Shown piece by piece: positions 9,075 to 49,876 of a stretch of 64,000 nucleotides of DNA (positions are counted from its first letter, which is position 1; every line of letters begins with the position of its first letter). The DNA comes from a virus. The stretch is taken from positions 31,438 to 95,437 of IMG/VR virus record IMGVR_UViG_3300017917_005124; one strand, written 5' to 3'. Position numbers and translations under genes: made by a program. The notes under the pieces are model-generated. The model saw only the letters and a list, made by a program, of their open reading frames with translations. It had not been told where the DNA came from and ran no database searches.

Positions 9075-12000
9075 TGGGAAGAGAATATCCGCAACCTTTT
9101 AGTATGAAAGATTTGTTCATTGATGTAAAGCTTGAGGCTTATGTCAAGGGAACTACTTTTGATTTTCTTGGTAGAAAGTTGTTTAGTACTCAATTCTTGA
9201 GAGAAGGAATTGGATTTGGTATAACAAATATTGAAATTGAGGTAAATACATCGCTACAGCCTATTGTTACAGTTACTATGAAAGATATGTATGGTTTAAC
9301 TGTGTTTGGAGGTCAAAGTAGAAATGATGATTACGACAATCAATCTTATGACTATAGTGTTTTGTTTGATTGGCCTCCTCCTAAGTTTTTGTTCTCATTT
9401 AAAGGATATTTGGGAAAACCAGTTAGTTGGCTTTTAAATCTAAAGAGGACAACAACAAACTTTAACTCAAGTGATGGTAGTTATGAAATTAAGTGTGAAT
9501 TTGTGCCAAATCAGTGGGGTTTCTTTGCGGATTTGCCAATGCTTTTTTTATTGGCAGCAAAGGCAATGAGGAGAGATAGAGTTGGAAATTCACCTGCAAA
9601 TCCAGCATATGTAACAAGTGTGTTTGATTTAATTAAAATAGGTAAACAAGTAGAGGTAAAAACGAAAGATACTACCAAGGAGTTTGATGAATTAATTAAA
9701 CAACTGGGGTCATTAAAATCAAATATAGCTGGAACTCTAGTTAGTTCTAAGGTTGTGGGTTTTGGTGATGAAATAACAGGAGTTGTTAATAATATTCCAA
9801 TTAAGGGTTTTAAAAAAATAACTATACCAAAACTTGAAGACTTTGATAGTTCAGTTAATACTGAAGAGAAAGTGAATCTTAAGATATCAGACCCAACTTC
9901 TTTATCGAAGGTAAACACCTATATGCTTCTTCACTTGAAGATTGATGGTAAATATTATCATAATTTTTCTATTCCTAGTTATAGTAGTCTCCAGCCTAAT
10001 GAATCAAATACATCAATTGCTAAAAATCAAACAATAGAAGGTATTAATAAAAATATAAGGCTTATTGAAGATGAAATAAAAAGAAGAGTATATAATTCTT
10101 CAAAAAGCAAGTTAAAAAAAATAACTATTGGAGAGATTTTCTCTCAACTTGCTAAGGATGCTGCTTTTATTATTGGAAATATAATAGAATCTGGATTAAA
10201 GGGTTATAATAATAATGTTGACTCAAGAAGTCAAAATGAAAAAAATTTAATAGGTCAATCATTTCCGCTAATGATAAAAGATAATGGAGAAGAAGTTCCA
10301 GCTACTACTGAGAACTTTGGAGACGACCTTGGAGTGGATAAATATGAAATGGATTTTGTTAGAAAATTCATAAATGCTATTAGTGAGGGGATTGCAAAGG
10401 ATTTGATTGATGATAATGATTCTAATCTGTCTGATGATAGTACTTTAAAGAATAGGATTAATAATATGGAAATAATTAAAGGCAATCCATATAAGCCATT
10501 CTATAGAGATATAGCAACAAATATTTTAGTCAGAGGAGGTATAGCTGGTTTTGTAACTAGAAGTAATGACCCTAATAAGCCAGGTGATTATGCTAATGAT
10601 TTTGTTGACTTTTATTTTGATAGAGAAGGTGCTGATGATTTAATTGCACTAGCTGAGTTAGATTCTAAAAATATAACTGATGGTATATTATCTCAAATGT
10701 CGGATGTTGATATACTTTCTTTGAAAAGATTTTGTAAGTTTTTCGGTAGGTTTTATCAAGAAAATGGAGAATATTTAATTGAAAGAGATAAAGATGGAAA
10801 TACTTCTAAGGGAGCTGAGATAACAAGTGCTGACCAAGCCTCGACATATAAAGTAATAATGGAGGATTCTCCTGAAGTGACTTTAACGTTTGAGCAATTG
10901 TTTAAAGAGTTAAAAAAGGGTAATATAGACTTTAGCTCAAATAAAACAGGTGGATTGGTTTTACCTGCAGAAGAGTTGGAAGAGGATTCTGAGTTTTCCA
11001 CATCTCAAGTACCTAGTTCAATAGACCCTATTCAATTTATTGATGATGAAGAATATACAGCAAAAAAAATAATAAATAACGGAATAGCATATACAAAACC
11101 TTTAAATAATAGTGATAGATATTGGTATGTAGTTTTTGAGGGAAATGATAACGTTAAGGCGCAAGAAGCAAACTCATCTCCATCGGATTCTGAAAGCAAA
11201 GGTTCAGAAAGGGATGAGAGTCAAGATGAGCCAGTGGGATATTTGCCAATAAACGCAGTAAAAGATTCTGAACAAAAAGAGTTAGGGTATTATAAACTTT
11301 TTAATGATAGACAGAGTCAGTTTTTACTTGTATCTTATGATAAATTAAAAAACCCAGAATCTTCTTTTTATGATAAAGATGAAAGTTCTGGATTTCAAAA
11401 TTATTTATTTACAAAAAAAATATATGAAAGTAAGGAAGAAGCTATTTATGAAGGTAAAAAACCTGGTGAATACGCTATTGCTGGAGAAATAGGTATGACT
11501 GTTTTTTCTAATTTTGATGGTGATACATTTGGGGAAGATGGTCTTGTTTTCGACATGTTTTCAAATACAAGACAAAGTATAAGTCAAAGAGTTTTTATTA
11601 AGCATATTTGTAAATTAATATTGCAAAATATAAATAAACTTGAAGAAGAGAGAAATCAGGTTATAGGCTCAGTTTTAGGTAAAGCAGCAGAACAGGAAGT
11701 TGCATTATATAAGCAAATGCATACTTTGTTTCATCAGTGGGAAGTTTTGTCATACGCATCAAATAAAAAAAGTGATTCACAAAAAGTTGACGGATTAATT
11801 GATGAATTAGAAGAAAAATATGGAGGTTCACATAATGATATAACTTCATCTGAGGATGTAAATGGATTGCCAGATGGTGCCTTTGTATATGAATTTCCTC
11901 TTCAGAGGATAAATGGAGTTAAAGGAGGTAAGCCTATACAGGTTAGAAATTCTTTAATAAATCTTGAGCCATTATATAAATTAAATGGAGACACTTCTGT

Positions 12001-13447
12001 TTTAAATATAATACAACAAATTTGCACGAAGAATAATTTCTTATTTATTCCAATACCTGGAAATGCATCTTATATGAATGTGTCAGATTTATATTCTCCA
12101 AGTCAAATGCACGCTAGTATAGATGTTAGAAATTTCTTTCATGTATTATTTACTCCAACACCAGAATCTAGAGCTAAGACTAAAAATAATGGAGCACCTT
12201 TAGCGTTAAGTGAGAATCATAAAAATTATGATACAAATTCTTTTGCTATAAAATATGGACATCCAGACAATCAAATTGTAAGTAATATACAAGTTGGCAC
12301 TGATGATAACAAAGTTACTGCAGAGAGTATTGTAAATTTGCAAAGATTAGCGGATAATGAAAATCAAAATAAAGTTGTAACTACTGATTGTTCCACATTA
12401 CCAGTTCTTGAAGGTCGTTCATATAAAGCTACTATTGATATGATTGGTAATGCTCAAGTGTATCCTATGCAATTCTTTTTTCTTGAGAATTCACCTTTAT
12501 TTGGAGGTCTTTATCAGGTTATGGATGTAAAGCATTCAATTACGCCTAATGATATGAAAACATCAGTTGGAGGTATGAGAATGAGATTTGTTGATAGTGG
12601 CTATGGTTCAATAAAACCAGTCACACTTGAGACTTTAGAAGGTTTAGGTAAATTAGAAGAACCTGTTGCGTTTTCTAAGGATGAAAAAGAGAAAATTAGA
12701 GAGATTAACGACTCAACATCAACAACAGGTTTTATGAATAATAAATCTACAAAATTATCAAAATCAGCAGCAAAAATAATAAAAAAATCATCAACAGAAG
12801 AAGATGCAACTGAGGCTATAATTAAATTTTTAGAAGGAGGATACTTCCATCCAGCTCATGCTTGGGATTCTAAAAAAAATAAAATTAAAAGAGGATATAC
12901 TATTATGCGCAATAGTAGTGAAACTCTTTTTGGTATAGATAGAAAAAAAGGTGAGTGGATTAAATCTTCAAAAGGAAGGGCTTTTTGGGAAAAAATAGAT
13001 ACTATATCTGGTTATGGCTCTTATTCAGATACAAATTGGTTAAAAACAACTAGACAATGGGATATTAAAAATAAACCATTAAAAAACAGCGCTTGGGGTT
13101 ATAACCACTTTCCAGATAAATCAGAAATATCTTCTCTATTAACAGAAGCTAAAAATATGATAAAAGAAAGATTTGATAAATATATTAAATTAAACTTTTC
13201 AAATCATCCTTTAAAAAAAATAATTTTAGAAGATGGTAGGCTTATTTTTATGTTCTATAGGGCTACGTGGAATGGGAGTGGGTTTTTTGCTAAATACGCA
13301 TCAAATATCAAGAGAGTATATGATAGTGGAGAAAGAAATGTTGATAAATTAATAGAAGCTGATTTAGATTATAGATATAAGACTAAAAAGGGGGAATTTA
13401 AGCAAGGTGTTATTGATATGAAGTATATGATAGATTATAATCCTTGA
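9074..13447 (+). CDS. Giant baseplate hub protein with C-terminal lysozyme-like domain
   Basis: At 1,457 residues it probably forms the central hub (gp27/gpD-like) under the tail tube. The first ~170 residues contain strand-rich segments typical of hub proteins; residues ~280-900 are charged and variable; residues ~960-1200 again look hub-like. The last 210 residues form a separate domain: a helix with FLEGGY (Glu near 1254) followed by TLFGIDR and several aromatic helices, a pattern like glycoside hydrolase family 108 muramidases. I infer that this end cuts peptidoglycan during entry, as the lysozyme of T4 gp5 does. The catalytic role of the Glu is inferred. Confidence 0.6.
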   Translation: MGREYPQPFSMKDLFIDVKLEAYVKGTTFDFLGRKLFSTQFLREGIGFGITNIEIEVNTSLQPIVTVTMKDMYGLTVFGGQSRNDDYDNQSYDYSVLFDWPPPKFLFSFKGYLGKPVSWLLNLKRTTTNFNSSDGSYEIKCEFVPNQWGFFADLPMLFLLAAKAMRRDRVGNSPANPAYVTSVFDLIKIGKQVEVKTKDTTKEFDELIKQLGSLKSNIAGTLVSSKVVGFGDEITGVVNNIPIKGFKKITIPKLEDFDSSVNTEEKVNLKISDPTSLSKVNTYMLLHLKIDGKYYHNFSIPSYSSLQPNESNTSIAKNQTIEGINKNIRLIEDEIKRRVYNSSKSKLKKITIGEIFSQLAKDAAFIIGNIIESGLKGYNNNVDSRSQNEKNLIGQSFPLMIKDNGEEVPATTENFGDDLGVDKYEMDFVRKFINAISEGIAKDLIDDNDSNLSDDSTLKNRINNMEIIKGNPYKPFYRDIATNILVRGGIAGFVTRSNDPNKPGDYANDFVDFYFDREGADDLIALAELDSKNITDGILSQMSDVDILSLKRFCKFFGRFYQENGEYLIERDKDGNTSKGAEITSADQASTYKVIMEDSPEVTLTFEQLFKELKKGNIDFSSNKTGGLVLPAEELEEDSEFSTSQVPSSIDPIQFIDDEEYTAKKIINNGIAYTKPLNNSDRYWYVVFEGNDNVKAQEANSSPSDSESKGSERDESQDEPVGYLPINAVKDSEQKELGYYKLFNDRQSQFLLVSYDKLKNPESSFYDKDESSGFQNYLFTKKIYESKEEAIYEGKKPGEYAIAGEIGMTVFSNFDGDTFGEDGLVFDMFSNTRQSISQRVFIKHICKLILQNINKLEEERNQVIGSVLGKAAEQEVALYKQMHTLFHQWEVLSYASNKKSDSQKVDGLIDELEEKYGGSHNDITSSEDVNGLPDGAFVYEFPLQRINGVKGGKPIQVRNSLINLEPLYKLNGDTSVLNIIQQICTKNNFLFIPIPGNASYMNVSDLYSPSQMHASIDVRNFFHVLFTPTPESRAKTKNNGAPLALSENHKNYDTNSFAIKYGHPDNQIVSNIQVGTDDNKVTAESIVNLQRLADNENQNKVVTTDCSTLPVLEGRSYKATIDMIGNAQVYPMQFFFLENSPLFGGLYQVMDVKHSITPNDMKTSVGGMRMRFVDSGYGSIKPVTLETLEGLGKLEEPVAFSKDEKEKIREINDSTSTTGFMNNKSTKLSKSAAKIIKKSSTEEDATEAIIKFLEGGYFHPAHAWDSKKNKIKRGYTIMRNSSETLFGIDRKKGEWIKSSKGRAFWEKIDTISGYGSYSDTNWLKTTRQWDIKNKPLKNSAWGYNHFPDKSEISSLLTEAKNMIKERFDKYIKLNFSNHPLKKIILEDGRLIFMFYRATWNGSGFFAKYASNIKRVYDSGERNVDKLIEADLDYRYKTKKGEFKQGVIDMKYMIDYNP

Positions 13448-21985: not shown

Positions 21986-24900
21986 ATGAAAGTAATTAAG
22001 AGAGATGGCTCAGAAGAGGGTGTGAAATTTGATAAAATTTCAGCGAGAATAAAAAAACAAACTTACGGATTAGATTCTGAATTTATAGATTATCTTGAGG
22101 TATCTAAGAAGGTTATTTCTGGTGTATATGATGGTGTTACATCTAAGGAACTTGATAACCTTGCGGCAGAGACAGCGGCTGCAATGACAAGGATTCACCC
22201 AGACTATTCAATACTTGCAGCAAGAATTGCAATATCCTCACTAAAGAAAGAAACAAAGAAAAGCTTCAAGGAGACTATAGAAGATTTGTATAATCACATT
22301 AGCAAAGAAACAAATCAACATGCTCCAATGGTGTCAGAGGAATTATATAATCTAGTTCAAAATCATCACAAGAAAATAGAATCAATGATTGTTCATGATA
22401 GAGATTTTGATTTTGAGTATTTTGGGTATAAGACTCTTGAAAGGTCTTACTTATTGAAAATAGATAATAAGATAGTAGAAACACCACAACACTTGTATTT
22501 AAGAGTTGCTCTTGGGATATGGGGAGATAATTTTGAACAAGCTCAAAAGACTTATGAGCTTTTATCAACTGGAGAATTTACTCATGCTACACCAACATTG
22601 TTCAACTCAGGAACTCAGAAACCACAGTTATCTTCATGTTTTCTTGTTGGAAACAAAGGTGATGATATTGATGGGTTATTTGATACATTAAAGGATGTTG
22701 CTAAGATTTCTAAGTGGGCTGGAGGAATTGGTCTACATGTTCATGATGTAAGGGCTAGAGGTTCTTATATTAAGGGCACAGGAGGTAAGTCAGATGGTCT
22801 TTTGCCTATGATGAAAACTTATAACGAAGTTGCAAAGTGGATAAATCAATGTTTTGCTCCAGAAACACTTATTTATACAAATGATGGAGTCAAGAGAATT
22901 GAGGACTTAAAAGAAGGAGAGCTTGTTTTAACTAAGGATGGAAAATATTGTGAAGTTGGAGAGGTTATGAGTTATAATCAAGTTGGAGGTATGCTTGAAA
23001 TTGAAACAAAATCAACGTTAAAACCCCTTAGACTAACTGATGAGCACCCTTTATTCGCATTTAAAAATACATACAATAGAATTGGACGCTCAAATGATGA
23101 GTACATAAATCAATTAGAAAAAGGAATAATATCTCCTAGCTGGATTGACAGTGGTGAATTAAAAGTTGGAGATTTTATTGGAAAAGCAATACCTAAAGAA
23201 GTTATTGATGTGGAATTTTTTTCTGAGGAAGATGCATTTATTTATGGTTTATTACTTGGAGATGGTCATATAAGCGGATATGAAGTAGGTATATCTTTTA
23301 ATGAAATAACTAATTCTGATAGTTTATTTATTGTAAGAAATTACTTAGTTGATAGAGATATTAAATTTTGGGAAGCAAAAAGTGAATCTGAATTTTATTT
23401 ACAAATTAGATTTTCTTTGAGTAATTTACCTTGGTTAAATGAAGATTTGCTATATGATGAACAAGGAAATAAAAGGTTACATAATTCTTTATCTCACTTA
23501 CCTCTAAATAAGAGTTTGCAAATAATTAATGGATTAATTAAATCAGATGGGGGTGTGTATAGAAGAAATGAAATTCATTTTTATAATACCTCAGAAGTTT
23601 TGGTAGAAAATTTATCTTATCAAATTTTGAGATTTAAAGTTCCGACCTATGGTTCTTGGGTTGAGCGAGAAAATAATAGTAAATACATTTTAGAACATGG
23701 ATGTAAAAAAGAGCTCACATTATCTTGCGACCTTAGAATCCCTGCCTTCAAAGAATTATCTGAAATACTTAATATAGAACAGGTTGAGCGTAAAAATTGG
23801 ATTGTTTGGGATGGTATTTTATATACAAGAATAACATCAGTTAAAATGATTGAGGATTATAATGGGAGAGTTTATGATTTAAAAATAAAAGAAAATTTTG
23901 AAGACCCATCCTATACATTATCTTCCGCATTGGTTCACAATGGAGGAAAGCGAAAAGGTTCTTTTGCGGTATATCTTGAGCCATGGCACCTGGATGTAGA
24001 GGAGTTTATAGATTTGCGAAAAAACCACGGTAAAGAAGAAGTTAGGGCGAGGGATTTGTTTTTAGCTCTTTGGATTCCTGATTTATTTATGAAAAGAGTT
24101 CAAGATGACTTAGAGTGGACATTAATGTGTCCTAATGAGTGTCCAGGCCTTTCTGATGTGTATGATATTTATCCAGAATATGATGAGGAAGGTGAAATAA
24201 CAAATTCTGAAGAAGTAAATTTAGCATTTACTGAATTGTATGAAAAGTATGAGCTAGAGAATAAAGGTAGAAAAACTATTAAGGCAAGAGAACTTTGGGC
24301 CAAGATACTTGATGCTCAGATTGAAACTGGAACCCCATATGTTTTATACAAAGATGCTGCAAATAAAAAGAGCAATCAAAAAAATATAGGAACCATCAAG
24401 TCTTCGAATTTATGTACAGAAATAATGGAAGTTTCAACTCCAGAAGAACAAGCTGTATGTAACTTAGCTTCTATAGCTCTTCCTAAGATGGTTGTTATTC
24501 CTCAAGGAAAAGTTAAATCTAAAGACAAATCCTTGAGAGGATATGATTTCCAAAGGCTATATGAAGTTGCATATCAAACAGCAGTCAATCTTAATAGAGT
24601 AATTGATATTAACTGGTATCCAACAGAAGAGACAAGAAGGTCAAATATGAGACACAGACCTATTGGGATAGGTGTTCAGGGCTTAGCTGATACATTTGCT
24701 ATGCTTGGGTTACCTTTTGAATCTGATGCAGCCAAAAAGCTTAATAAGGATATTTTTGAGACAATCTACTTTGCAGCTATGACAGCTTCAAATGATATGT
24801 CCAAGAAATCATATAGAGCCGAATCAGCTTCTACTGAAGATGTTAGCTTCACAATTGGGGCGTACTCAACTTTTGTTGGCTCTCCATTGTCTGAAGGAAA

Positions 24901-25660
24901 ATTCCAATTTGATATGTGGGGAATTGATGAGTCAATGCTTTCTGGTCTTTGGGATTGGTCTAAGCTTAGAAAATCAGTGGTTAAGTATGGTGTGAAAAAC
25001 TCATTATTGCTTGCTCCAATGCCAACAGCATCTACAGCTCAAATTCTTGGAAACAATGAGTGCTTCGAGCCATATACAAATAACATTTATAAGAGAAATA
25101 CTCTTTCTGGGGAATTTGTTGTTGTAAATAGGCACTTGGTTGAAGATTTAATAAACATTGACCTTTGGAATGATGAGATAAGAATAAAAATCATTCAAAA
25201 CAATGGTTCAATTCAAACTATTGCAGAAATTCCTGCAGAAATACGTGAGGCCTACAAGACGGTTTGGGAGATGAAGGCAAGTAACTTAATTGATATGGCT
25301 GCAGATAGAGGGGCATTTATTTGTCAATCTCAGTCTATGAATTTATTTATTAGAGATGCAAATGTAGCTAAGTTAAATAAAGCATTATTCTACGCTTGGT
25401 CTAAGGGTCTTAAAACTGGAATGTATTACCTTAGAAGTAATGCTCAATCTGAGGCTAAGAAGTCTCTTGGAGAAAACATATCATCAGAAGTGTCTGAGTC
25501 AATTACAACTGAATCAGTAGCGCCTGCGATGATTCAAGCAATGGTTTCTAATATTATTGAGACACCTTCAGTAGAACTATCAGATGCTGAGTCTGAGGCG
25601 ATGAGAGGTTTGACTTGTAGTTTGGATTCTCCTGAAAATTGTGATTCCTGCGGTGCGTAG
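21986..25660 (+). CDS. nrdA: Ribonucleotide reductase class I, large subunit, interrupted in frame by an intein
   Basis: The frame encodes 1,224 residues: an N-terminal ATP-cone (1-90), the reductase barrel and a C-terminal redox tail ending CDSCGA. Residues 289-652 are an intein, so the host protein would be 860 residues, normal for NrdA. Conserved pieces include SSCFLV, GKRKGSFAVYLEPWH, MCPNECPGL, NLCTEIMEVS and PTASTAQILGN. It reduces ribonucleotides with NrdB. Removing the intein joins INQ to GGKRKG, matching the usual QGG motif. The residue after the intein is Gly rather than Cys, Ser or Thr, so splicing is in doubt. Confidence 0.93.
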   Translation: MKVIKRDGSEEGVKFDKISARIKKQTYGLDSEFIDYLEVSKKVISGVYDGVTSKELDNLAAETAAAMTRIHPDYSILAARIAISSLKKETKKSFKETIEDLYNHISKETNQHAPMVSEELYNLVQNHHKKIESMIVHDRDFDFEYFGYKTLERSYLLKIDNKIVETPQHLYLRVALGIWGDNFEQAQKTYELLSTGEFTHATPTLFNSGTQKPQLSSCFLVGNKGDDIDGLFDTLKDVAKISKWAGGIGLHVHDVRARGSYIKGTGGKSDGLLPMMKTYNEVAKWINQCFAPETLIYTNDGVKRIEDLKEGELVLTKDGKYCEVGEVMSYNQVGGMLEIETKSTLKPLRLTDEHPLFAFKNTYNRIGRSNDEYINQLEKGIISPSWIDSGELKVGDFIGKAIPKEVIDVEFFSEEDAFIYGLLLGDGHISGYEVGISFNEITNSDSLFIVRNYLVDRDIKFWEAKSESEFYLQIRFSLSNLPWLNEDLLYDEQGNKRLHNSLSHLPLNKSLQIINGLIKSDGGVYRRNEIHFYNTSEVLVENLSYQILRFKVPTYGSWVERENNSKYILEHGCKKELTLSCDLRIPAFKELSEILNIEQVERKNWIVWDGILYTRITSVKMIEDYNGRVYDLKIKENFEDPSYTLSSALVHNGGKRKGSFAVYLEPWHLDVEEFIDLRKNHGKEEVRARDLFLALWIPDLFMKRVQDDLEWTLMCPNECPGLSDVYDIYPEYDEEGEITNSEEVNLAFTELYEKYELENKGRKTIKARELWAKILDAQIETGTPYVLYKDAANKKSNQKNIGTIKSSNLCTEIMEVSTPEEQAVCNLASIALPKMVVIPQGKVKSKDKSLRGYDFQRLYEVAYQTAVNLNRVIDINWYPTEETRRSNMRHRPIGIGVQGLADTFAMLGLPFESDAAKKLNKDIFETIYFAAMTASNDMSKKSYRAESASTEDVSFTIGAYSTFVGSPLSEGKFQFDMWGIDESMLSGLWDWSKLRKSVVKYGVKNSLLLAPMPTASTAQILGNNECFEPYTNNIYKRNTLSGEFVVVNRHLVEDLINIDLWNDEIRIKIIQNNGSIQTIAEIPAEIREAYKTVWEMKASNLIDMAADRGAFICQSQSMNLFIRDANVAKLNKALFYAWSKGLKTGMYYLRSNAQSEAKKSLGENISSEVSESITTESVAPAMIQAMVSNIIETPSVELSDAESEAMRGLTCSLDSPENCDSCGA
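22850..23941 (+). other. Intein in NrdA with LAGLIDADG endonuclease domain
   Basis: The 364-residue insert starts with Cys in CFAPETLIYTNDG (block A), continues with LTDEHPLF (block B, catalytic Thr/His region), and ends with YDLKI (block F) and VHN (block G, His-Asn). Two dodecapeptide motifs, IYGLLLGDG and INGLIKSDGG, mark an intact-looking LAGLIDADG homing endonuclease. All canonical splicing residues are present on the intein side, but the +1 extein residue is Gly. Boundaries are set by the NrdA family motif on both sides. Confidence 0.88.
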
Positions 25661-31246: not shown

Positions 31247-32675
31247 AAAAAATATTATGAATTATGAAAAAAATATAAATGAAATTATTCATAAAGTATC
31301 TTTAGAGGAAGGTTTTAATGTTTGTTTGGATAATAAAGAAATTGATGAAAAAATTTTCATTATAAAAAATGAGTTATCAAAAAAGTATAACATACTAAAT
31401 TTTGACAAAGAAAATTCTTTTGACATAAATTTAGATTATAAAATTTCTACAATAAAAGAATTAACTAATAATAAAAATTTTCAAAATAAGTCATTTGGAG
31501 AGGTTATGAGTCCGTTGGATTCACTTATAACTCCAATGATGAATACGTTGCCAAAAGAAGTCTGGAGCAATCCTAATCTTAAGTGGCTTGATTCATGTGC
31601 TGGTATAGGAAATTTTCAATCTATTATAATAAGTAGGTTAATGGATGGGCTAGTTAATTGGGAGCCAGACCAAGAAAAAAGGTATAATCATATTATAGGC
31701 AATATGATTTATCTAGGAGAGCTTCAAGCTAAAAATTCATTTATTAATTTTATTTTATTTAGTAGAAATGAAAGTATTGTTAATATGTATAATGATGATT
31801 TTTTGGATAAAAAATTTGAAAAGCATATGCATGATGAGTGGGGGGTTGATGGTTTTGATATAATTATAGGAAATCCACCTTTTAATAGTGCTTCGGTTGG
31901 AGCTTTTGGAAAAAGGGATTTGTGGGATAAATTTGTAATTAAAAGCATTGATTTATTAAATAAAAATGGATTTTTAGTTTTGGTCCATCCACCTAAGTGG
32001 AGAATGCCAGAACATAAATTATTTGATATTTTTAAGAAAAATAATTTAATATACTTAGAAATACACTCAAAATTTGATGGTGATAAAATTTTTAAGGCTA
32101 CCACAAGATATGATTTTTATTGTTTGCAAAAATGTTCTTATAATGGGAAAACAAAAGTTGTAGATGAACTAGGAGTTTGTTCATATATAGATATAACAAA
32201 ATGGGATTGGTTGCCTAATTATGAATTTGAAAGTATTAGTAGCATAATCACCAAAGAGTTCAATAATAATTGTGAAATTATATATGACCGCTCTAAGTAT
32301 GGAAATGAAAAGGAGTGGATGTCTAAAAAAAAGGATGAAAATCATATGCTACCTTGTGTATATGGTATGTATAAAGATAGAACCTGTTCATATTTGTATT
32401 CATCAGAGGATAAAGGTCATTTTGGACAATCAAAATTAATTCTTGGTATTGGAGAGGTATTATATCCACTTATTGACTATAAGGGTGAATTCGGGCTGAC
32501 AAATAATACATTTGCTATAGTTAGTGATGATTTAATTGTTTTAGAAAATATGAAACAAGCAATAGAGTCGGAGGGGTTTAAAAAAATAATAAAAGCAACA
32601 AAGTGGAATAATTTTCAGACTAGCCAAAAAATGTTTAAATCTTTTAAGAAAGATTTTTGGAAAAATTTTATATAA
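31239..32675 (+). CDS. DNA N6-adenine methyltransferase (type II/IIG-like)
   Basis: The 478-residue protein has the AdoMet-binding motif LDSCAGIGNF near 118-127 and the catalytic motif NPPF at 212-215, the gamma-type order of adenine methylases. The C-terminal 200 residues probably hold the target-recognition domain. No nuclease domain is seen. It overlaps the helicase end by eight bases. It may protect phage DNA from host restriction; the target sequence is unknown. Confidence 0.82.
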   Translation: MNKKNIMNYEKNINEIIHKVSLEEGFNVCLDNKEIDEKIFIIKNELSKKYNILNFDKENSFDINLDYKISTIKELTNNKNFQNKSFGEVMSPLDSLITPMMNTLPKEVWSNPNLKWLDSCAGIGNFQSIIISRLMDGLVNWEPDQEKRYNHIIGNMIYLGELQAKNSFINFILFSRNESIVNMYNDDFLDKKFEKHMHDEWGVDGFDIIIGNPPFNSASVGAFGKRDLWDKFVIKSIDLLNKNGFLVLVHPPKWRMPEHKLFDIFKKNNLIYLEIHSKFDGDKIFKATTRYDFYCLQKCSYNGKTKVVDELGVCSYIDITKWDWLPNYEFESISSIITKEFNNNCEIIYDRSKYGNEKEWMSKKKDENHMLPCVYGMYKDRTCSYLYSSEDKGHFGQSKLILGIGEVLYPLIDYKGEFGLTNNTFAIVSDDLIVLENMKQAIESEGFKKIIKATKWNNFQTSQKMFKSFKKDFWKNFI

Positions 32676-37843: not shown

Positions 37844-39190
37844 ATGGATAGAAGAGCGTTTGGGCCTGAAGATGAAGATGAATCAAGTATTGATAAAGTA
37901 AAGAAAAATAGCAAAAGCGAAACTCCAATTTTAGACCACTACGGAAAAGACTTAACTGAAATAGCAAAAAAAGGGGGTCTTGACCCAGTTGTGGGAAGGG
38001 ATTCAGAAATAGATAAGTTAATTCAAATTCTAAATAAGAGAAGGAAAAATAATCCTGTTCTTGTTGGAGAATCTGGTGTTGGTAAGACAGCAGTTGTAGA
38101 AGGGCTTGCTATTAGAATTGCAAACAAACAGGTTGACAGATGGCTCTTTAACAAGAGGGTTATTGAATTGAACTTTACTAGCATTGTTTCTGGGACAAAA
38201 TATAGAGGTGAGTTTGAACAGAGAATGGAGGATATTCTTAAGGAAGCTAAAAATAGTCCTAATGTTATAATTTTCATTGATGAGTTGCATAATGTGGTTG
38301 GAGCTGGTAGTGCATCAGGTTCAATGGATGCGTCAAATATTATTAAACCAGCTCTTGCAAGGGGTGAAATTAAAGTTATAGGGGCTACAACAGTTGATGA
38401 ATATAAGAAAATTATAGAGAGTGATAGCGCCCTTGAGAGAAGATTTCAAAAAATATATATAAATATACCATCTAAGGAGGATACTCTTTTGATACTTAAG
38501 CAATTAAGAGATAGATATGAGGATTATCATAATGTGGTATATAGTGATGAGGTTCTTGAAAAGTGTGTTGAATTTACTGATAGGTATATTAATTACAGAA
38601 ATTTCCCAGATAAGGCTATTGATGCAATGGATGAAGTTGGTTCTATAGTTAAGCTGAAAAATACAGTGGTCCCAGATAGTATTAAGAAATTAGAAAAGGA
38701 ATTAGGCAGTATTATCTCTAGCAAGAAAGATGCAGCTAAGAGTCAAAAATATGAAGATGCAGCTAAGTTTAGAGACAAAGAAAGGGAGATGAATAAAAAA
38801 ATTGAGGATGAAAGGGTTAAGTGGGAAGAAAAATTAAAAAAGAATAAAATAAATGTAACAACTCAGCATGTAGCTGAAGTGATATCTGGATATACTGGAA
38901 TTCCACTTATAAAGTTAACTGACGATGAAAATAAAAAGCTTGTTGGTATGCAAGAGTTTTTATCAAAAAAAGTTATAGGCCAAGAAGAGGCTGTGACTAA
39001 GGTGTGTGAGGCAATACAGCGCTCAAGACTTGGGCTTCAAGACCCAAATAAGCCAATTGCATCATTTTTATTGCTTGGCTCAACAGGTGTTGGTAAGTGT
39101 ATTTGTTCTGATACTCAAATAGTTATTAGAAATAAGGCAACTGGATTGACAGAAATTTTATCAATAGAAGAATTAAAAAAAAGAACTTAA
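37844..39190 (+). CDS. Clp-type AAA+ ATPase, N-terminal half, fused to split-intein N fragment
   Basis: Residues 1-418 are the first part of a ClpC/ClpB-like unfoldase lacking the usual N domain: D1 Walker A GESGVGKT (~75-82), Walker B VIIFIDELHN, a UVR-like middle helix (KSQKYEDAAKFRDKE, ~295-315), and D2 up to its Walker A, GSTGVGK. At that Lys the frame passes into 30 residues starting CICSDTQI and ends at a stop. These are an intein N fragment. The second half is at 40871. Protein splicing in trans would rebuild a 672-residue ATPase. Confidence 0.88.
   Translation: MDRRAFGPEDEDESSIDKVKKNSKSETPILDHYGKDLTEIAKKGGLDPVVGRDSEIDKLIQILNKRRKNNPVLVGESGVGKTAVVEGLAIRIANKQVDRWLFNKRVIELNFTSIVSGTKYRGEFEQRMEDILKEAKNSPNVIIFIDELHNVVGAGSASGSMDASNIIKPALARGEIKVIGATTVDEYKKIIESDSALERRFQKIYINIPSKEDTLLILKQLRDRYEDYHNVVYSDEVLEKCVEFTDRYINYRNFPDKAIDAMDEVGSIVKLKNTVVPDSIKKLEKELGSIISSKKDAAKSQKYEDAAKFRDKEREMNKKIEDERVKWEEKLKKNKINVTTQHVAEVISGYTGIPLIKLTDDENKKLVGMQEFLSKKVIGQEEAVTKVCEAIQRSRLGLQDPNKPIASFLLLGSTGVGKCICSDTQIVIRNKATGLTEILSIEELKKRT
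39098..39187 (+). other. Split intein, N fragment (30 aa)
   Basis: It starts with Cys directly after the P-loop Lys (GVGK|C) and contains the block A pattern SDTQIVIRN..TG....SIEEL. The very short N fragment is like the atypically split inteins of the AceL/VidaL kind, rather than the usual ~100-residue N half. Confidence 0.85.
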
Positions 39191-39278
39191 TACTATTCCC
39201 AATTCCTTTGCTGCCTAAAATACCTTAACTACTTATTGGAAAAACATTTTTTAAAACTATTTGTAGTAGAATTAAAAA

Positions 39279-40853
39279 ATGTTTTTTATGATTATCATAT
39301 ATAATAGAAAGAGAGTTGAATTTATAGATTTGTTCCCTATGGTTAACTTGTTTGTTAATTATTTAAAAGAAAATTACTCTTCATTAAATTTTAGTAATAA
39401 AGAATTTTATAAAAAAATAATTAAAGCATATGATTTCTTTTCACAGGTAGATGACGTAGTTCAATATACTAGGTTGACTAGGTATCTGCATAAGGGTTTT
39501 AATTTTAGTTATAAAAATATTACCAAGAAAGAATTTTGGATTGAGAGGGGTTGGTCAGAGCAAGAATCTGCAGATATTATGCGAGAGGATAAATTAAAAA
39601 GAGTAAATAAACAAATTATTACACAACAAGAAAAAAATAAAAATAAGAATGAGTTAAAATTAGACAATACATTAAAAGAATTTAGATTTATATCTGGTAA
39701 ATTCTTTTCTTCAGAATATCCAAAGTGTAATCATTGTAAAAATGAATTATTATTAAAAAAAATTAATATAAATAATTTAGATGACAAATTTTATTATAAA
39801 ATTATAAAATGTTCAAATGAAGAGTGTAAGACTAATTATATGAATAAAAAAGATAAATACATGTCATTTTTGCCAATAGATATTGCAGAAGAAATTTTAA
39901 CAAAATTTTCAGAACAAGCTAAAGAAAGAAGTATATTATCTATTGAAAGTTGGATTAAAAAAGGTTTATCAAAAAAAGAGGCAAAGATTGAGGTTTTTAA
40001 TATACAATCAGAAAATTCTAAGAAAGTAAAAAATAGATTTGTAGCATCAAAGGAGAATTTAAAAAAACTTGGAAAAACTGAAGAAGAGATAATAAATATT
40101 TGTACGACTCCAACTCAAATTGATTTTTGGATTAAAAAAGGGTTATCTAAAGAAGAGTCAATAATTAAAATAAGAACCCTCCAAGAAGAAGCAAGTCGAA
40201 AGTTTGCTAAAAAGAGGGTAGATAATCCAGGATTATATTCTGCTGTAACTCAAACTCAAATTGGATATTGGTTGAATAAGGGTTTTTCAGAAGAAGAGGC
40301 AAGGGGCAGGTTGTCAGAAAGACAGTTAACTTTTAGTTTAGATATTTGTATAGAGAAATATGGGGAAGAAGAAGGTAGGAGAATATTTAATGAGAGGCAA
40401 AATAAGTGGAATAAGTCATTAAATGAAGGTGGAAATTTAAAAATAGGCTATTCCAAGTGTTCTCAGGATTTATTTAATTCTTTAATTGAGAGTTATAGTT
40501 TTGAAGAATTAGATGATGTTTTATTTGCTACAAAAGGTGGTGAATTTAAAATACAAAGAGAAGAAGGTGGGATTTGGATGTATGATTTCGTTGATTTGAA
40601 TAGAAAAAAAATAATTGAATATCATGGAGATATGTATCATGGAAATCCGAAAAAATATTCTGCTGGAGATTTCCCTCACCCTTTTAGAAAAAATATAACC
40701 GCACAAGAGATGTGGGATAAAGATGGGTTAAAAATAAAAAATGCTGAGGAACAAGGGTTTAAGGTGTTTATTGTTTGGGATTCAGAATATAGGTGGGGAA
40801 ATAAACAAAAAGTTATTGATAAGTGTCTTGATTTTTTGGATATTAACAAATAA
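39279..40853 (+). CDS. Homing endonuclease between the clp halves (EDxHD/Vsr-like)
   Basis: The 524-residue protein has four copies of a helical repeat of form WIxKGLSxxEA at about 85, 225, 285 and 327, probably DNA-binding, and a zinc finger (CNHC..CSNEEC, ~148-186). The C-terminal ~95 residues hold YDFVD, then IIEYHGDMYHGNP and a final FIVWDSE, matching the Vsr-like EDxHD endonuclease pattern reported with fractured split-intein genes. It sits exactly between the split clp genes, so it probably spreads the break. ATG 39279 follows an A-rich leader. Confidence 0.78.
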   Translation: MFFMIIIYNRKRVEFIDLFPMVNLFVNYLKENYSSLNFSNKEFYKKIIKAYDFFSQVDDVVQYTRLTRYLHKGFNFSYKNITKKEFWIERGWSEQESADIMREDKLKRVNKQIITQQEKNKNKNELKLDNTLKEFRFISGKFFSSEYPKCNHCKNELLLKKININNLDDKFYYKIIKCSNEECKTNYMNKKDKYMSFLPIDIAEEILTKFSEQAKERSILSIESWIKKGLSKKEAKIEVFNIQSENSKKVKNRFVASKENLKKLGKTEEEIINICTTPTQIDFWIKKGLSKEESIIKIRTLQEEASRKFAKKRVDNPGLYSAVTQTQIGYWLNKGFSEEEARGRLSERQLTFSLDICIEKYGEEEGRRIFNERQNKWNKSLNEGGNLKIGYSKCSQDLFNSLIESYSFEELDDVLFATKGGEFKIQREEGGIWMYDFVDLNRKKIIEYHGDMYHGNPKKYSAGDFPHPFRKNITAQEMWDKDGLKIKNAEEQGFKVFIVWDSEYRWGNKQKVIDKCLDFLDINK

Positions 40854-40870
40854 ATAAGTAAATTTGAAGT

Positions 40871-41299
40871 ATGAATAATAAAGAAGTAAGCGATAAGCCA
40901 CAATTATTCTTTTTTGATAAAAAAGAATTTGATGGATTTAAAAAGATAATTGAAACTAAAAAAATTAGTGATTATGAAGTATTAACAGATGATGGTTTTG
41001 TTGGAATTGAAAATTTGCATACAACAACCGAGTACCAAGTTTATGAGTTAAAGACAAAATCTGGTAAAACATTAAAATGTGCAGATAATCATATTGTTTT
41101 TGATTATAATATGAATGAAGTGTTTGTGATAAATCTATCTGTTGGAGATTTAATATTTTCAAAAAATGAAAATAATGAATTATCATTAGAAGAGGTAGAA
41201 CATGTTATTGATTTAGGATACAAGGAAGAGATGTATGATTTAGAATTAGACTCTGATTCTAATAGAAGGTATTTTACAAACGGAATTCTTTCTCATAAT
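40871..41299 (+). other. Split intein, C fragment (143 aa)
   Basis: It contains YEVLTDDGFVGIENL, block B-like LKCADNHIVF, block F MYDLELDS and block G LSHN, followed by Thr as +1 nucleophile. The first ~33 residues carry an extra lead-in with LFFFDKKEFDGFKKI. Confidence 0.85.
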
Positions 41300-42064
41300 A
41301 CTCATCTTGCAAAACAACTATCAAGTTTTATGTTTCATAAGGAAGATGCGTTTATAAGGTTTGATATGAGTGAATATATGGAAAAATTCACTATTTCAAA
41401 ATTAATTGGTTCCCCTCCAGGTTATATAGGTTACGAAGAAAAGGGCATACTTACGGAGGCTGTTAAAAATAAACCATATTCAATATTATTGTTTGATGAA
41501 ATTGAAAAGGCGCACCCAGATATTTTTAATATATTTTTACAAATACTTGATGATGGTATTTTAACTGATTCATCGGGTAGAGAAATAAATTTCAAGAATT
41601 GTATAATCATTATGACATCGAATATTGGTACAGATAAAATAATGGGAAAGAAAACTCTTGGCTTTGGTGTTGCTAATGATGAGCATTCAGATATAACTTC
41701 TATTGTTGGTGATGAGCTTAAAAAATACTTAAGACCAGAGCTTATAAATAGAATTGATGAAAAAATAGTATTTAAACCTCTTACTCAAGATAATATATCT
41801 AAGATTGTGGATATTGAAATTGATAAGACAATTAAAAGAATATCTGAAAAAGGGTATGATATTATAATTTCTAAGAGCGTAAGGGATTATATAGTTGAGA
41901 TTGGGTATGACAAAGAGTATGGTGCAAGGCCTCTTAAAAGAGCTATTACTACGAATATAGAAAATGTAATCTCTCAATGTATACTTAAAAATGACATTAA
42001 AGATGGCGATAAGATTAAATTATCTTATGATAAAAAAAATAAAAAAGTCATAGCAAAAATATGA
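40871..42064 (+). CDS. Split-intein C fragment fused to Clp ATPase C-terminal half
   Basis: Residues 1-143 are the intein C fragment; residues 144-397 start THLAKQLSSFMF, the exact continuation of the D2 Walker A GxTGVGK|T. The extein half then shows FDMSEYMEKF, IGSPPGYIGYEEKG, Walker B ILLFDEIEKAH, TSNIG, LRPELINRIDE and YGARPLKRAI, all standard for ClpB/ClpC D2. It needs trans-splicing with the product of 37844 to give a working P-loop. It overlaps the next gene by four bases. Confidence 0.88.
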   Translation: MNNKEVSDKPQLFFFDKKEFDGFKKIIETKKISDYEVLTDDGFVGIENLHTTTEYQVYELKTKSGKTLKCADNHIVFDYNMNEVFVINLSVGDLIFSKNENNELSLEEVEHVIDLGYKEEMYDLELDSDSNRRYFTNGILSHNTHLAKQLSSFMFHKEDAFIRFDMSEYMEKFTISKLIGSPPGYIGYEEKGILTEAVKNKPYSILLFDEIEKAHPDIFNIFLQILDDGILTDSSGREINFKNCIIIMTSNIGTDKIMGKKTLGFGVANDEHSDITSIVGDELKKYLRPELINRIDEKIVFKPLTQDNISKIVDIEIDKTIKRISEKGYDIIISKSVRDYIVEIGYDKEYGARPLKRAITTNIENVISQCILKNDIKDGDKIKLSYDKKNKKVIAKI

Positions 42065-43028: not shown

Positions 43029-43370
43029 ATGAAATTTATATATTTGTTTAATGTAGAAGGAACTAATGTTTATAAGATTGGTAACTCTGGAAATGTGAAC
43101 AAGAGAAGATTGGAAATTCAAACAGGTTGCCCATTTAAAGTTGTTGAGATAGTTAGGTTTAAGAGTAAATATCCAAATAAAGTTGAAAAAGCGCTTCATA
43201 ATAAATTCGGCCTTCAAAAAGAAGATGAAGATGGTAGGGAATTGCAGGGTGAATTTTTCGCCTTATCAAATGAAGATAAAAAAATGTTTATGGAGCATTG
43301 TCAAAAAATGGAAGATATGTTTCTGATTTTAGAAGAAAATACTTATTTGCAAAACAAAAAAAAGACTTGA
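43029..43370 (+). CDS. T5orf172/GIY-YIG-like small nuclease-fold protein
   Basis: The 113 residues fit the T5orf172 (MUG113) branch of the GIY-YIG fold: IYLFNVEGTNVYKIGNSGN, then RRLEIQTGCPFKVVE and KVEKALHNKF. The conserved Tyr, Arg and Glu/His positions are present. Such proteins are often free-standing in phages, either as endonucleases or DNA-binding regulators. No DNA-binding repeats are attached here. Confidence 0.7.
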   Translation: MKFIYLFNVEGTNVYKIGNSGNVNKRRLEIQTGCPFKVVEIVRFKSKYPNKVEKALHNKFGLQKEDEDGRELQGEFFALSNEDKKMFMEHCQKMEDMFLILEENTYLQNKKKT

Positions 43371-45010: not shown

Positions 45011-45031
45011 ATTTCTTTGTATTTATAAGTG

Positions 45032-46168
45032 ATGCTTAAGTCATATAAATATAGAATATACCCAACAGAGGCTCAGCAGGAGCAACTTGCCAAGGCCTTC
45101 GGATGTGCTCGATTTGTTTACAACCTTGGTCTTGAGACCAAAATATCCGCCTGGACTTCTGCAAAGAAATATGTTGATGTTTTTGACTTATCCAATCAAA
45201 TGAGAGAACTCAAGAGCACAGAGGCGCCTTGGCTTAAGGATTGTCCATCTCAAGCACTTCAGATGTCCCTGAGAAACCTAGATAATGCATATACAAACTT
45301 CTTCAAGAGAGGCTCTGGTTTCCCGAAATTCAAGTCCAAGCACTCAAGACAAAGCATTCAGCTCCCGCAAGGAGTTCGAATTGCTGATGATGGCAAGCAA
45401 GTGTTTATTCCAAAGCTCAAATGGGTCGGCATTGACCTTCACAGAGCGTTACCAGATGGAGATGTCAAGACTGTGACAGTCTCAAGGACAACAACCAATA
45501 AATATTTCATCTCAATTTTGGTTGACACCAAAAGGGAAGTGCCAAGTAAGAAGCTAATAAATGAATCAACCTCAGTTGGCATTGATTTGGGCATCAAGGA
45601 TTTTGCAATAACAAGTGATGGCATGAAGTTCGAGAACAAAGACTTCATGAAATCTACACAAAAACAGCTTCGAGTTGCACAAAGGTCTCTTGCAAGAAGG
45701 GTCAAGGGAAGCGGTGGATATGAGCGACAAAAGAAGAGAGTTGCACTTTTGCATGAGAAAATTAGGAATCAAAGACAAGACTACTTACATAAGATTTCGA
45801 GCTACTTAGTCAAGACCTATGACACAATTTGCATTGAGGACCTCAGTGTCTCAGGCATGGTCAGGAACCACAATCTTGCAAGAGCCATATCAGACCAAGG
45901 ATGGAGAGAGTTTCGTTCAATGCTTGAGTACAAGGCTGAGTGGCAAGGGAAGAACATTCAGGTTATCGGGAGGTTTGACCCAAGCAGCAAGACTTGTTCT
46001 TGTTGTGGCAAGATGAATAAAGAGCTCAAGCTCTCTGATAGAAATTGGACTTGCAGAAGCTGCGAGACAACTCATGACCGAGATGTGAATTCAGCGAAGA
46101 ATATAAAGAATTTTGGGCTTCGGAACCAGCCCCGCATGTCGCAACGTGAGCCAATAGGCTGTGCGTGA
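45032..46168 (+). CDS. tnpB: TnpB RNA-guided endonuclease
   Basis: The 378-residue protein is full length. It has the N-terminal OrfB part (YRIYPTEAQQEQL), RuvC motif I SVGIDLGIKDFA (Asp), motif II ICIEDLSV (Glu), a four-Cys zinc finger (CSCCG..CRSC) and motif III HDRDVNSAKNI (Asp). All three catalytic acids are present. TnpB uses an omega RNA from the element end to cut DNA next to a short TAM. The start ATG 45032 follows a TATTTATAA box that looks like the phage late promoter. Confidence 0.92.
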   Translation: MLKSYKYRIYPTEAQQEQLAKAFGCARFVYNLGLETKISAWTSAKKYVDVFDLSNQMRELKSTEAPWLKDCPSQALQMSLRNLDNAYTNFFKRGSGFPKFKSKHSRQSIQLPQGVRIADDGKQVFIPKLKWVGIDLHRALPDGDVKTVTVSRTTTNKYFISILVDTKREVPSKKLINESTSVGIDLGIKDFAITSDGMKFENKDFMKSTQKQLRVAQRSLARRVKGSGGYERQKKRVALLHEKIRNQRQDYLHKISSYLVKTYDTICIEDLSVSGMVRNHNLARAISDQGWREFRSMLEYKAEWQGKNIQVIGRFDPSSKTCSCCGKMNKELKLSDRNWTCRSCETTHDRDVNSAKNIKNFGLRNQPRMSQREPIGCA

Positions 46169-47708: not shown

Positions 47709-47743
47709 TTAAATAATTGTTTTGTAAATTAGTTATAATTATA

Positions 47744-47751
47744 TATATTTG
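47744..47751 (+). promoter_or_regulatory. Bacteroidetes-type promoter -7 box TATATTTG
   Basis: The box is followed by CGTTAAACA and lies 22 bases before ATG 47774. Confidence 0.65.
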
Positions 47752-47773
47752 CGTTAAACAACAAGTTATTGGT

Positions 47774-49876
47774 ATGAAAATTTCAAAAGAAGATAAGGAA
47801 GAGATATTTAGAAGAAAAGAGATATTAGAAGTTGCTAGAGTGGGTTTGAAGAAGGAGTTTATTGGTCTTGATGATATAATTAATGAGTTAATAGACTTGA
47901 TTGAATCTTGGTATTTATTTCCAAGTGGACAAATAAGGCCAACAATAATAAATTTATTTGGAATGACTGGGGTGGGTAAGACTTCTTTAATAAAGAGGCT
48001 TTTTGAGTTAATTGACTTAAAAGATAATTTATATAAATTTGACATTGGTGAGTATAATTCTCAAGAGAATTCTAAGCTTTCGTATGCATTTTCTGATAAT
48101 TTAAGAGGCAGGGAAAATAATCAGATAGGGATTATTTTTGACGAATTCCAACTTGGTAGAACTATAGATGAGGGTGGGGTTGAGATAGAGAAATCTGGTT
48201 TAAGAGCTATGTGGGAATTGTTAGATACTGGTAAGATTTCTATACTTCAATCATCTTTCTGTGGCTCAAAAATATATCAATTATCATTAAAACTTGAAGA
48301 TTGTGTTAATAACGGAAGTGTTGAGGCTAAAAATGGCTTAGTTACAAAAAATAAAGAATATCATCAAAAGTTTTTTAAAGAAGAATTGGTTGATGAGGAA
48401 TTCGCTCTAAAAGATGCAAAAAATAAAAAAAATAATGATGATGAAATTTTATTTATACCAGAAGAATTTAATTGGTATATAAATGAAATTTGGGAAAATA
48501 GATTTTTAACAGATAGAGAGTTGACTGAATTTTTAAAGTCATTGAACCATCAAACATCAGTTGAGTTTTTAAACCAAACAGTAAATAAAGCCTTAAAACC
48601 TGTTGAGTTTAATTATGCATCATCTTGTATATTTGTCATAGGAAATATTGATGAAGCATATAGGATGTCTAAAAACATAGACCCAGATGGTGATGCTGAT
48701 AGATTTTATGAGCACTCAAAAAAGATAACATTACCTCAGATTAAATCAGCGCTTCAAAGAAGATTCAGAGCTGAGCAGATTGCTAGACTTGGGAATAATC
48801 ATATTATATATCCAGCATTTAGTTCCAAGATGTATAGGGATTTAATTAATCTTGAGCTTAAAAGGTGTTCTAGTAAAGTTAAGGAAAAATTTGATATTGA
48901 TATTATATTTAAAAAGACAGTAGGCGAAATAATATATAAGGAAGGAGTTTTTCCAACTCAAGGCGCAAGACCTTTGTTTACAACTATAAATTATCTTATT
49001 GAGTCTTTTATTGGAAAAATAATTAGAGATATTTTTGAATTAGAAGATTCTATAAAATCTATTATTTGGAAATTTTATAAAAATAAGTATATAGTAAGTT
49101 TTTTAAATAAAGAAAATAAATTAGTAAAAAAAATATCATACCCAGTTAGGCTTAAGGTTGAAAATCTTAGGAAAAGTGAGGAAAGTGAATTACAAGCTCA
49201 AGTTGCTATACATGAGTCTGGACATGCGGTAGCTGCTATATACGCAGCCAATATCCTTCCGATTGAAGTTGTGAGTAGAAGTGCTAATATGTCTGAGGGT
49301 CACTGTGCTGTTGAAATACCGTCTACTGGACTACAAACTAGGGATGAGTTAGAAAAAGAAATTATAATATGTCTTGGTGGATATGTTGCTGAAAAACTTG
49401 TTTTTGGACAAAACAAAGTTGCTAATGGAACTAGTGGTGATTTTTATAGAGCGACTAATATAGCTCTTGAAATGGCTAAGTCATATGGTATGCTTGGAGC
49501 AGGTCCAATGCTTTATGGACATAAAAGTCCGAGTACAAATAGTGAATGGAGCTCTTATTCAGTTGATGAAATGGATAAGTTGGCTGAGAAAATAATTATT
49601 GATTCAGAGATTAAGTGTAAGAAGATTTTGAGTGATAATAAGCTTCTATTACTAAAGTTGGGTGAACACCTATCGAATAACTCCAGAATGGATTCGTCAG
49701 AAATCCAGGAGTTTGTTAATAATTATGGTAGTCCAGTTGAGATTAAAAGTAAAGATGACTACCATATGTTCAAATCAACAATTGCAAAAGAACTTGCTGA
49801 AGAAGAATTGAGTTTTAGGCCAAAGAAAAATTCTGTAAGTAGAGTGGAAGTTAAATTAAAACAAGACAAGATATGA
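47774..49876 (+). CDS. AAA+ ATPase fused to FtsH-type (M41) metalloprotease, no membrane anchor
   Basis: ATG 47774 follows the promoter; the longer frame would span it. Of 700 residues, 1-~450 form a ClpB-D2/ClpX-like AAA+ module: Walker A GMTGVGKTS (~63-71), Walker B IIFDEFQ (~120), a Lys-rich insert (~180-260), then RRFRAEQ and FPTQGARPL. Residues ~470-620 form an M41 peptidase: HESGH at 480-484, GGYVAEKLVFG and TSGDFYRATNIA with the third zinc ligand Asp. FtsH itself has two membrane helices and its own AAA type; this lacks both. It should be a soluble ATP-driven protease. Confidence 0.82.
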   Translation: MKISKEDKEEIFRRKEILEVARVGLKKEFIGLDDIINELIDLIESWYLFPSGQIRPTIINLFGMTGVGKTSLIKRLFELIDLKDNLYKFDIGEYNSQENSKLSYAFSDNLRGRENNQIGIIFDEFQLGRTIDEGGVEIEKSGLRAMWELLDTGKISILQSSFCGSKIYQLSLKLEDCVNNGSVEAKNGLVTKNKEYHQKFFKEELVDEEFALKDAKNKKNNDDEILFIPEEFNWYINEIWENRFLTDRELTEFLKSLNHQTSVEFLNQTVNKALKPVEFNYASSCIFVIGNIDEAYRMSKNIDPDGDADRFYEHSKKITLPQIKSALQRRFRAEQIARLGNNHIIYPAFSSKMYRDLINLELKRCSSKVKEKFDIDIIFKKTVGEIIYKEGVFPTQGARPLFTTINYLIESFIGKIIRDIFELEDSIKSIIWKFYKNKYIVSFLNKENKLVKKISYPVRLKVENLRKSEESELQAQVAIHESGHAVAAIYAANILPIEVVSRSANMSEGHCAVEIPSTGLQTRDELEKEIIICLGGYVAEKLVFGQNKVANGTSGDFYRATNIALEMAKSYGMLGAGPMLYGHKSPSTNSEWSSYSVDEMDKLAEKIIIDSEIKCKKILSDNKLLLLKLGEHLSNNSRMDSSEIQEFVNNYGSPVEIKSKDDYHMFKSTIAKELAEEELSFRPKKNSVSRVEVKLKQDKI

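Follow-up and report, generated by a model that had tools for sequence, protein, structure and literature searches.

The clp gene of the virus in IMG/VR record IMGVR_UViG_3300017917_005124 is, on sequence criteria, a fractured gene carrying an atypically split class 1 intein, with a free-standing gene for a putative homing endonuclease lying between its halves. We analysed a window of 64,000 nucleotides (nt; positions 31,438 to 95,437 of this 95-kb record), and estimate at about 90% the probability that a mobile cassette made of split intein and endonuclease invaded clp at GK|T in the second Walker A motif (P-loop), with trans-splicing restoring Clp and the endonuclease spreading the cassette.

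Clp and its interruption

The N-extein comprises, in this order, a short leader, a first AAA+ module (D1) with an intact P-loop (GESGVGKT), a UVR-like middle domain and the start of the second module (D2) up to GSTGVGK, after which the open reading frame (ORF) runs into the intein N fragment (IntN; CICSDTQIVIRNKATGLTEILSIEELKKRT). The second half opens with the intein C fragment (IntC), which terminates in ...YFTNGILSHN at 41299 and is followed at 41300 by THLAKQL, with Thr as the +1 residue. An insertion at GK|T in the D2 P-loop had been proposed in an initial annotation made from the letters alone, and the exact junctions GSTGVGK and THLAK bear it out, while the length of 672 residues that it gave for the joined product is the sum of the exteins (418+254). 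The endonuclease gene that it had placed between the halves is also there (Table 1); its frame differs from that of the N half, all three frames are closed between them, and it has its own start.

In Pfam searches the N half matched AAA_lid_9 (E 6e-28), AAA (E 1e-14) and, weakly, a UVR-like domain, and the C half matched AAA_2 (E 5e-58) and ClpB_D2-small (E 2e-24); additionally, the N-extein matched phrog_4871 (E 8.5e-132). The protein thus has the two AAA+ modules and the ClpB_D2-small C-terminal domain of Clp/Hsp100 ATPases. It lacks an N domain, and its UVR-like middle motif, a weak match, is ClpC-like. An intact homologue from a related phage (L002) scored below the NCBIfam equivalog cut-offs for both ClpB (797 bits vs 1232) and ClpA (692 vs 993).

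Table 1. Components of the fractured clp gene, in positions of the window.
Feature	Position	Strand	Description
Clp N half ORF	37844-39190	+	448 aa
Clp N-extein	37844..39097	+	418 aa; ends GSTGVGK at base 39097
Intein N fragment (IntN)	39098..39187	+	30 aa, Cys1, block A only; stop 39188-39190
Putative homing endonuclease gene, free-standing	39279..40853	+	524 aa; VSR/EDxHD-like C-terminal domain at about residues 390-520
Clp C half ORF	40871-42064	+	397 aa
Intein C fragment (IntC)	40871..41299	+	143 aa; block B CADNH, block F, block G SHN
Clp C-extein	41300..42061	+	254 aa; THLAK, rest of D2, C-terminal small domain; stop 42062-42064

Intein class and fold

The intein contains the residue set of class 1, namely Cys1, the His-Asn of block G (SHN) and Thr+1, and its fragment lengths agree to the residue with the atypical 30/143 split suggested initially. 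The break lies between blocks A and B and leaves a short IntN, of 28-39 residues among the D2 relatives described below, with which that of the window shares 42-69% identity. Cys1 is kept in 20/20 D2 inteins with the N side covered and in all eight split D1 inteins. Residues 49-143 of the C half matched the Pfam family Intein_splicing with an E of 9e-7, under the Pfam gathering score, and a profile built from 18 C fragments retrieved gp41-1 (1e-15), VidaL (1e-13) and CatC (1e-11) as the nearest solved relatives. Likewise, the AlphaFold2 model of IntC alone (predicted local distance difference test, pLDDT, 83.9; predicted template modelling score, pTM, 0.73) has a Hint fold, and 48 PDB entries matched it in Foldseek at E<=1e-3; those listed are inteins or Hint-type domains, with VidaL as the best.

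Known atypical splits, in residues of the N and C fragments, include AceL-TerL (25/104), Cat-TerL (30/104) and GOS-TerL (37/115) (PMC11766414). As in the window, the inteins AceL-TerL, GOS-TerL, Cat and VidaL (PDB 6dsl, 6vgv) combine a tiny N fragment holding block A only with a larger C fragment. However, the C fragment of the window (143 residues, with an N-terminal leader) is longer than the 104-115 residues of the TerL atypical inteins, whose N fragments have 25-37, and it combines Cys1 and Thr+1 at a Walker A GK|T, whereas AceL-TerL and GOS-TerL have Cys+1. Apart from the profile and fold matches to VidaL, gp41-1 and Cat, the block B CAxNH is common to VidaL and the IntC of the window.

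Empty and occupied sites in related phages

Dozens of related phage records contain either the same invader or an empty site. The nearest Clp relatives (L002-L005) are uninterrupted, reading GSTGVGK|THLAKQL, with amino acid identities of 80% in the N-extein and 79% in the C-extein; intact clp genes, which the initial annotation had suggested seeking in related phages, were therefore found. The empty site of the L002 type and the window are identical at 93/120 nt on either side of the junction. In a viral scan for relatives of the C fragment, whose locus counts are lower bounds, the D2 GK|T was occupied in at least about 22 distinct IMG/VR loci, to which a contiguous form in L099 is added. Examples are L006, L016, L082-L085, L087, L096, L100, L102, L105-L107, L110-L113, L120, L125 and L144, with the C side alone covered in L016 and L096. 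Cys1 and SHN|T are invariant among these D2 relatives.

In a Clp tree of 74 sequences, 50 of them distinct empty-site ones, occupied and empty states required 12 changes, at least 8-9 of which are forced by well-supported branches, and the sister of the window Clp is, with full support, the empty L002. This patchy distribution indicates that the cassette has been gained and lost many times. A scan of bacterial genomes retrieved eight relatives, whose readable exteins belonged mostly to TerL, DnaB or AAA genes and in no case to Clp.

Transfer, constraint and stages of the homing cycle

Both intein halves and the endonuclease evidently move horizontally between distant phages. For instance, between L083 and L085 the endonuclease genes are 94% and the IntN sequences 90% identical in nt, yet both exteins only 61%, and L107 and L113 have identical IntN DNA (96/96 nt, 32 codons) with exteins at 65%. 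Conversely, IntC alone is common to pairs such as L105 and L106 (91% nt, vs 52% for IntN), indicating that the intein halves can have separate histories.

Ratios of nonsynonymous to synonymous substitution rates (dN/dS) were measured on relatives, the cassette of the window having no relative close enough. IntC gave 0.07-0.16, the endonuclease 0.15-0.39 and IntN, with few sites, 0.18-0.52. Codon comparisons thus place both intein halves and the endonuclease under purifying selection in these relatives.

Several stages of a homing cycle can be recognized among the alleles. The cassette is complete in the window, L083, L084 and others; the endonuclease is shrunk to 91 residues in L006 and interrupted by stops in L120; and it is lost, with the intein still split, from L105 and from D1 of L087, L113, L117 and L118. 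Finally, L099 contains a contiguous cis intein in one ORF at the D2 site, and its fused junction retains the leader (EIQKRIKK...VLLFDKHELESLKK) that starts the C-half protein in split alleles. As L099 is placed among split alleles in both trees, we read its contiguous intein as a re-joining through deletion of the endonuclease gene, the alternative being that it represents the ancestral state.

The endonuclease

About 130 C-terminal residues of the endonuclease are conserved, with D436, E447, H454 and E477, among others, kept in 13 homologues. Profile searches gave I-Bth0305I (3r3p) and VSR as top matches, both weak (E 0.07-0.9), while Foldseek matched the structure model to VSR (1cw0/1vsr; probability 1.0, E 0.013) and I-Bth0305I (probability 0.93), with a pTM of just 0.35 for the whole protein. 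The EDxHD type suggested at the outset therefore finds support in the modelled fold, and the sequence profiles remain weak; accordingly, we name the protein VSR-like or EDxHD-type by its modelled fold and not by motif register. Endonucleases at D2 have two types of catalytic domain, one of which is common to the D1 endonucleases.

Proposed mechanism and alternatives

In the mechanism that we favour, a mobile cassette would have entered clp between the GK and T codons of the second Walker A motif, after which the two Clp pieces would be made separately from genes on one strand. The 30-residue N fragment would dock into the 143-residue C fragment, completing the Hint fold, and trans-splicing via Cys1, Asn143 and Thr+1 would join GSTGVGK to THLAK to give an intact Clp ATPase of 672 residues. 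With the P-loop incomplete in both halves, D2 would need splicing for its ATPase activity and is presumably inactive before it. The endonuclease would in turn cleave the empty D2 site of clp alleles, with repair copying the whole split cassette into them.

Several observations count against this mechanism. The block B Thr is replaced by Ala (CADNH, His kept), departing from TxxH, and the block F His by Arg; ClpP was not found in the 95-kb record; and the endonuclease family is weak by sequence, with 3r3p as the best hit (E 0.07). As to block B, VidaL is likewise devoid of the Thr (CAFNH).

The intein halves might instead be relics that have lost splicing, with clp a pseudogene or its two halves working independently, the N half for instance as a protein with D1 alone. 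Some active-site positions do vary, and the phage has a second AAA-type protease gene (47717-49876), so that loss of clp might be tolerated. Nevertheless, both exteins are still full length and all three ORFs in the window are intact, Cys1, SHN and Thr+1 are invariant in the D2 relatives, and the dN/dS of IntC in relatives is low; we thus regard decay as improbable. We give slightly more weight, still considering it unlikely, to the endonuclease being a passenger aimed at another locus, through collaborative homing or intergenic insertion, that does not mobilize the clp intein. The different histories that IntN plus endonuclease and IntC can have, as in L105 and L106, would agree with this, but related endonucleases lie between split halves in Clp D1, Clp D2, TerL and gp46, and IntN and endonuclease travel jointly between distant phages.

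An assembly or sequencing error could have broken an ordinary cis intein that had its endonuclease in frame, as the initial annotation warned; the record is metagenomic, and a cis form exists at the D2 site in L099. We reject this explanation, to which we assign a negligible probability, because the endonuclease lies in another frame behind stops in all frames and with its own start, and because the same split recurs in many contigs assembled independently from different samples, which excludes chance or sequencing error. Joining at the RNA level, through a self-splicing intron that houses a homing gene, appears just as implausible and was also rejected. Homing genes of phages are often found within group I introns; however, the only known families matched in an Rfam scan of the window were tRNAs, with no intron family, and the intein motifs are conserved as protein at both edges, selection acts at the codon level and a cis intein allele exists.

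Intein sites at both P-loops

The D1 P-loop is also occupied in related phages. It is split at GK|T in L017, L082, L087, L117 and L118, and three residues earlier (GEPG|CGKT, with Cys+1) in L059, L106 and L113. In L111 (2345-5245), the D1 GK|T contains a contiguous LAGLIDADG intein starting with Ala, whose Trp/Cys/Thr pattern, judged by eye, suggests class 3, and D2 of the same gene contains a split class 1 intein. Both P-loops are split in L082, L087, L106 and L113, with one or two endonuclease genes, and clp is thus in three pieces in at least four records.

Within L082 and L087, D1 and D2 fragments are 35-38% identical in IntN and 55-65% in IntC. The D1 IntC of L117 groups with the D2 IntC of L006 (90% support; second half 87% identical), which suggests that D1 and D2 inteins have exchanged sequence. 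Across the junction, the two sites in the window have 14 nt in common, GGTGTTGGTAAGAC. We consider it fairly probable that the Clp D1 and D2 P-loops form a paired niche, occupied by homologous split inteins with endonucleases that exchange sequence, and that a three-piece clp needs two simultaneous trans-splicings by related, presumably non-cross-reacting inteins. Without such orthogonality, the middle piece (IntC-extein-IntN) could close into a ring or polymerise, so that a natural protein may already rely on split inteins that do not cross-react.

Relation to known inteins

Fractured genes were reportedly described by Dassa et al. in 2009, with halves on one strand, a split intein at the break and a free-standing VSR-like endonuclease between them. 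The arrangement in the window is of this type, but its host is a Clp/Hsp100 ATPase, and phages related to the window break clp at two homologous P-loops, resulting in three pieces.

Related C fragments, many of them after split partners, also occur at the Walker A of TerL, gp46/SbcC-like, DnaB and clamp-loader-like AAA genes, several of these hosts being named from sequence by eye. Cultured Ackermannviridae have a contiguous TerL version, as in Klebsiella phage Magnus (MN045230), whose annotated intein reads ARQSGK|C...SHN|TTVV. It shares with the window the Walker A GK|T site and the sequence family (39.5% to the IntC of the window), but it is contiguous (159 residues), resides in a terminase, and the annotated stretch lacks an endonuclease gene separate from it. 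Indeed, the TerL Walker A is a classic intein site, where the TerL1-a intein of mycobacteriophages, also at GK|T, is of the cis type and in a terminase (PMC5050341). Given this known site and the relatives in TerL, gp46 and DnaB, the cassette family is not new. Separately, TerL of L157, L177, L181 and L184 has two intein C fragments, at Walker A and at a Cys+1 site (C.FLGSS-like) resembling that of AceL-TerL, and may be in three pieces.

Inteins are described in ClpP of green-algal chloroplasts and bacteria (PMC5784728). They also affect a component of the Clp system, but ClpP is a peptidase unrelated to the ATPase, and its inteins appear there as contiguous, whereas the Clp intein of the window is split. 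A Clp ATPase intein was not found among 5.4 million open-access papers, a search that left out the host-gene list of Dassa et al. 2009, and only the ClpP peptidase inteins came up; within these bounds, Clp ATPase stands as the new intein host that the initial annotation took it for. As far as we found, the novelty also extends to the two homologous sites per gene, the three-piece clp and the D1/D2 intein exchange.

Other genes of the phage

Clp is one among several fractured or intein-bearing genes of the same record. DnaE (DNA polymerase III alpha, with PHP, exonuclease and PolIII alpha domains), upstream of the window, is in four ORFs (G000:C1:17546-24430; L193:5547-12431). Its three breaks, at GPARG|SAAGS, LNPERN|SSPDID and YSFNK|SHSLS, are each flanked by split intein fragments of the canonical kind, with a long N and a short C part, and the gaps contain remnants of VSR-like nuclease genes. 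A terminase-like protein (TerL; G000:C1:12000-15023; L193:1-3024, entering from upstream) contains a contiguous LAGLIDADG intein, and in the ribonucleotide reductase large subunit (window 21986-25660, 1224 aa) residues 284-648, approximately, form a contiguous intein with a LAGLIDADG domain.

Just downstream of clp there is a gene for a small GIY-YIG-like (T5orf172/MUG113) protein (43029-43370) and, about 3 kb downstream, a TnpB-like gene (OrfB_IS605/Cas12f1-like; 45029-46165); L017 has a similar-looking gene downstream of its clp as well (10829-12010). The second AAA-type protease gene mentioned above encodes 719 residues in which an M41 (FtsH-type) peptidase domain is unusually combined with a match to a Clp-type D2-small domain, possibly a Clp-like AAA+ module fused to a metalloprotease.

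Implications

With this gene, the natural hosts of split inteins gain a Clp unfoldase, a ring motor. Because one site is seen empty, invaded, with the endonuclease eroded or lost, and with contiguous halves, how split inteins arise and are lost becomes testable within one gene family. Orthogonality of split inteins is currently engineered through screening (PMC7090010, PMC12707363), and the three-piece clp provides a natural test of it; likewise, the 20-odd pairs with N fragments of 28-39 residues are candidate labelling tools. Finally, if the D2 ATPase depends on splicing, this would offer a possible timing control of Clp activity.
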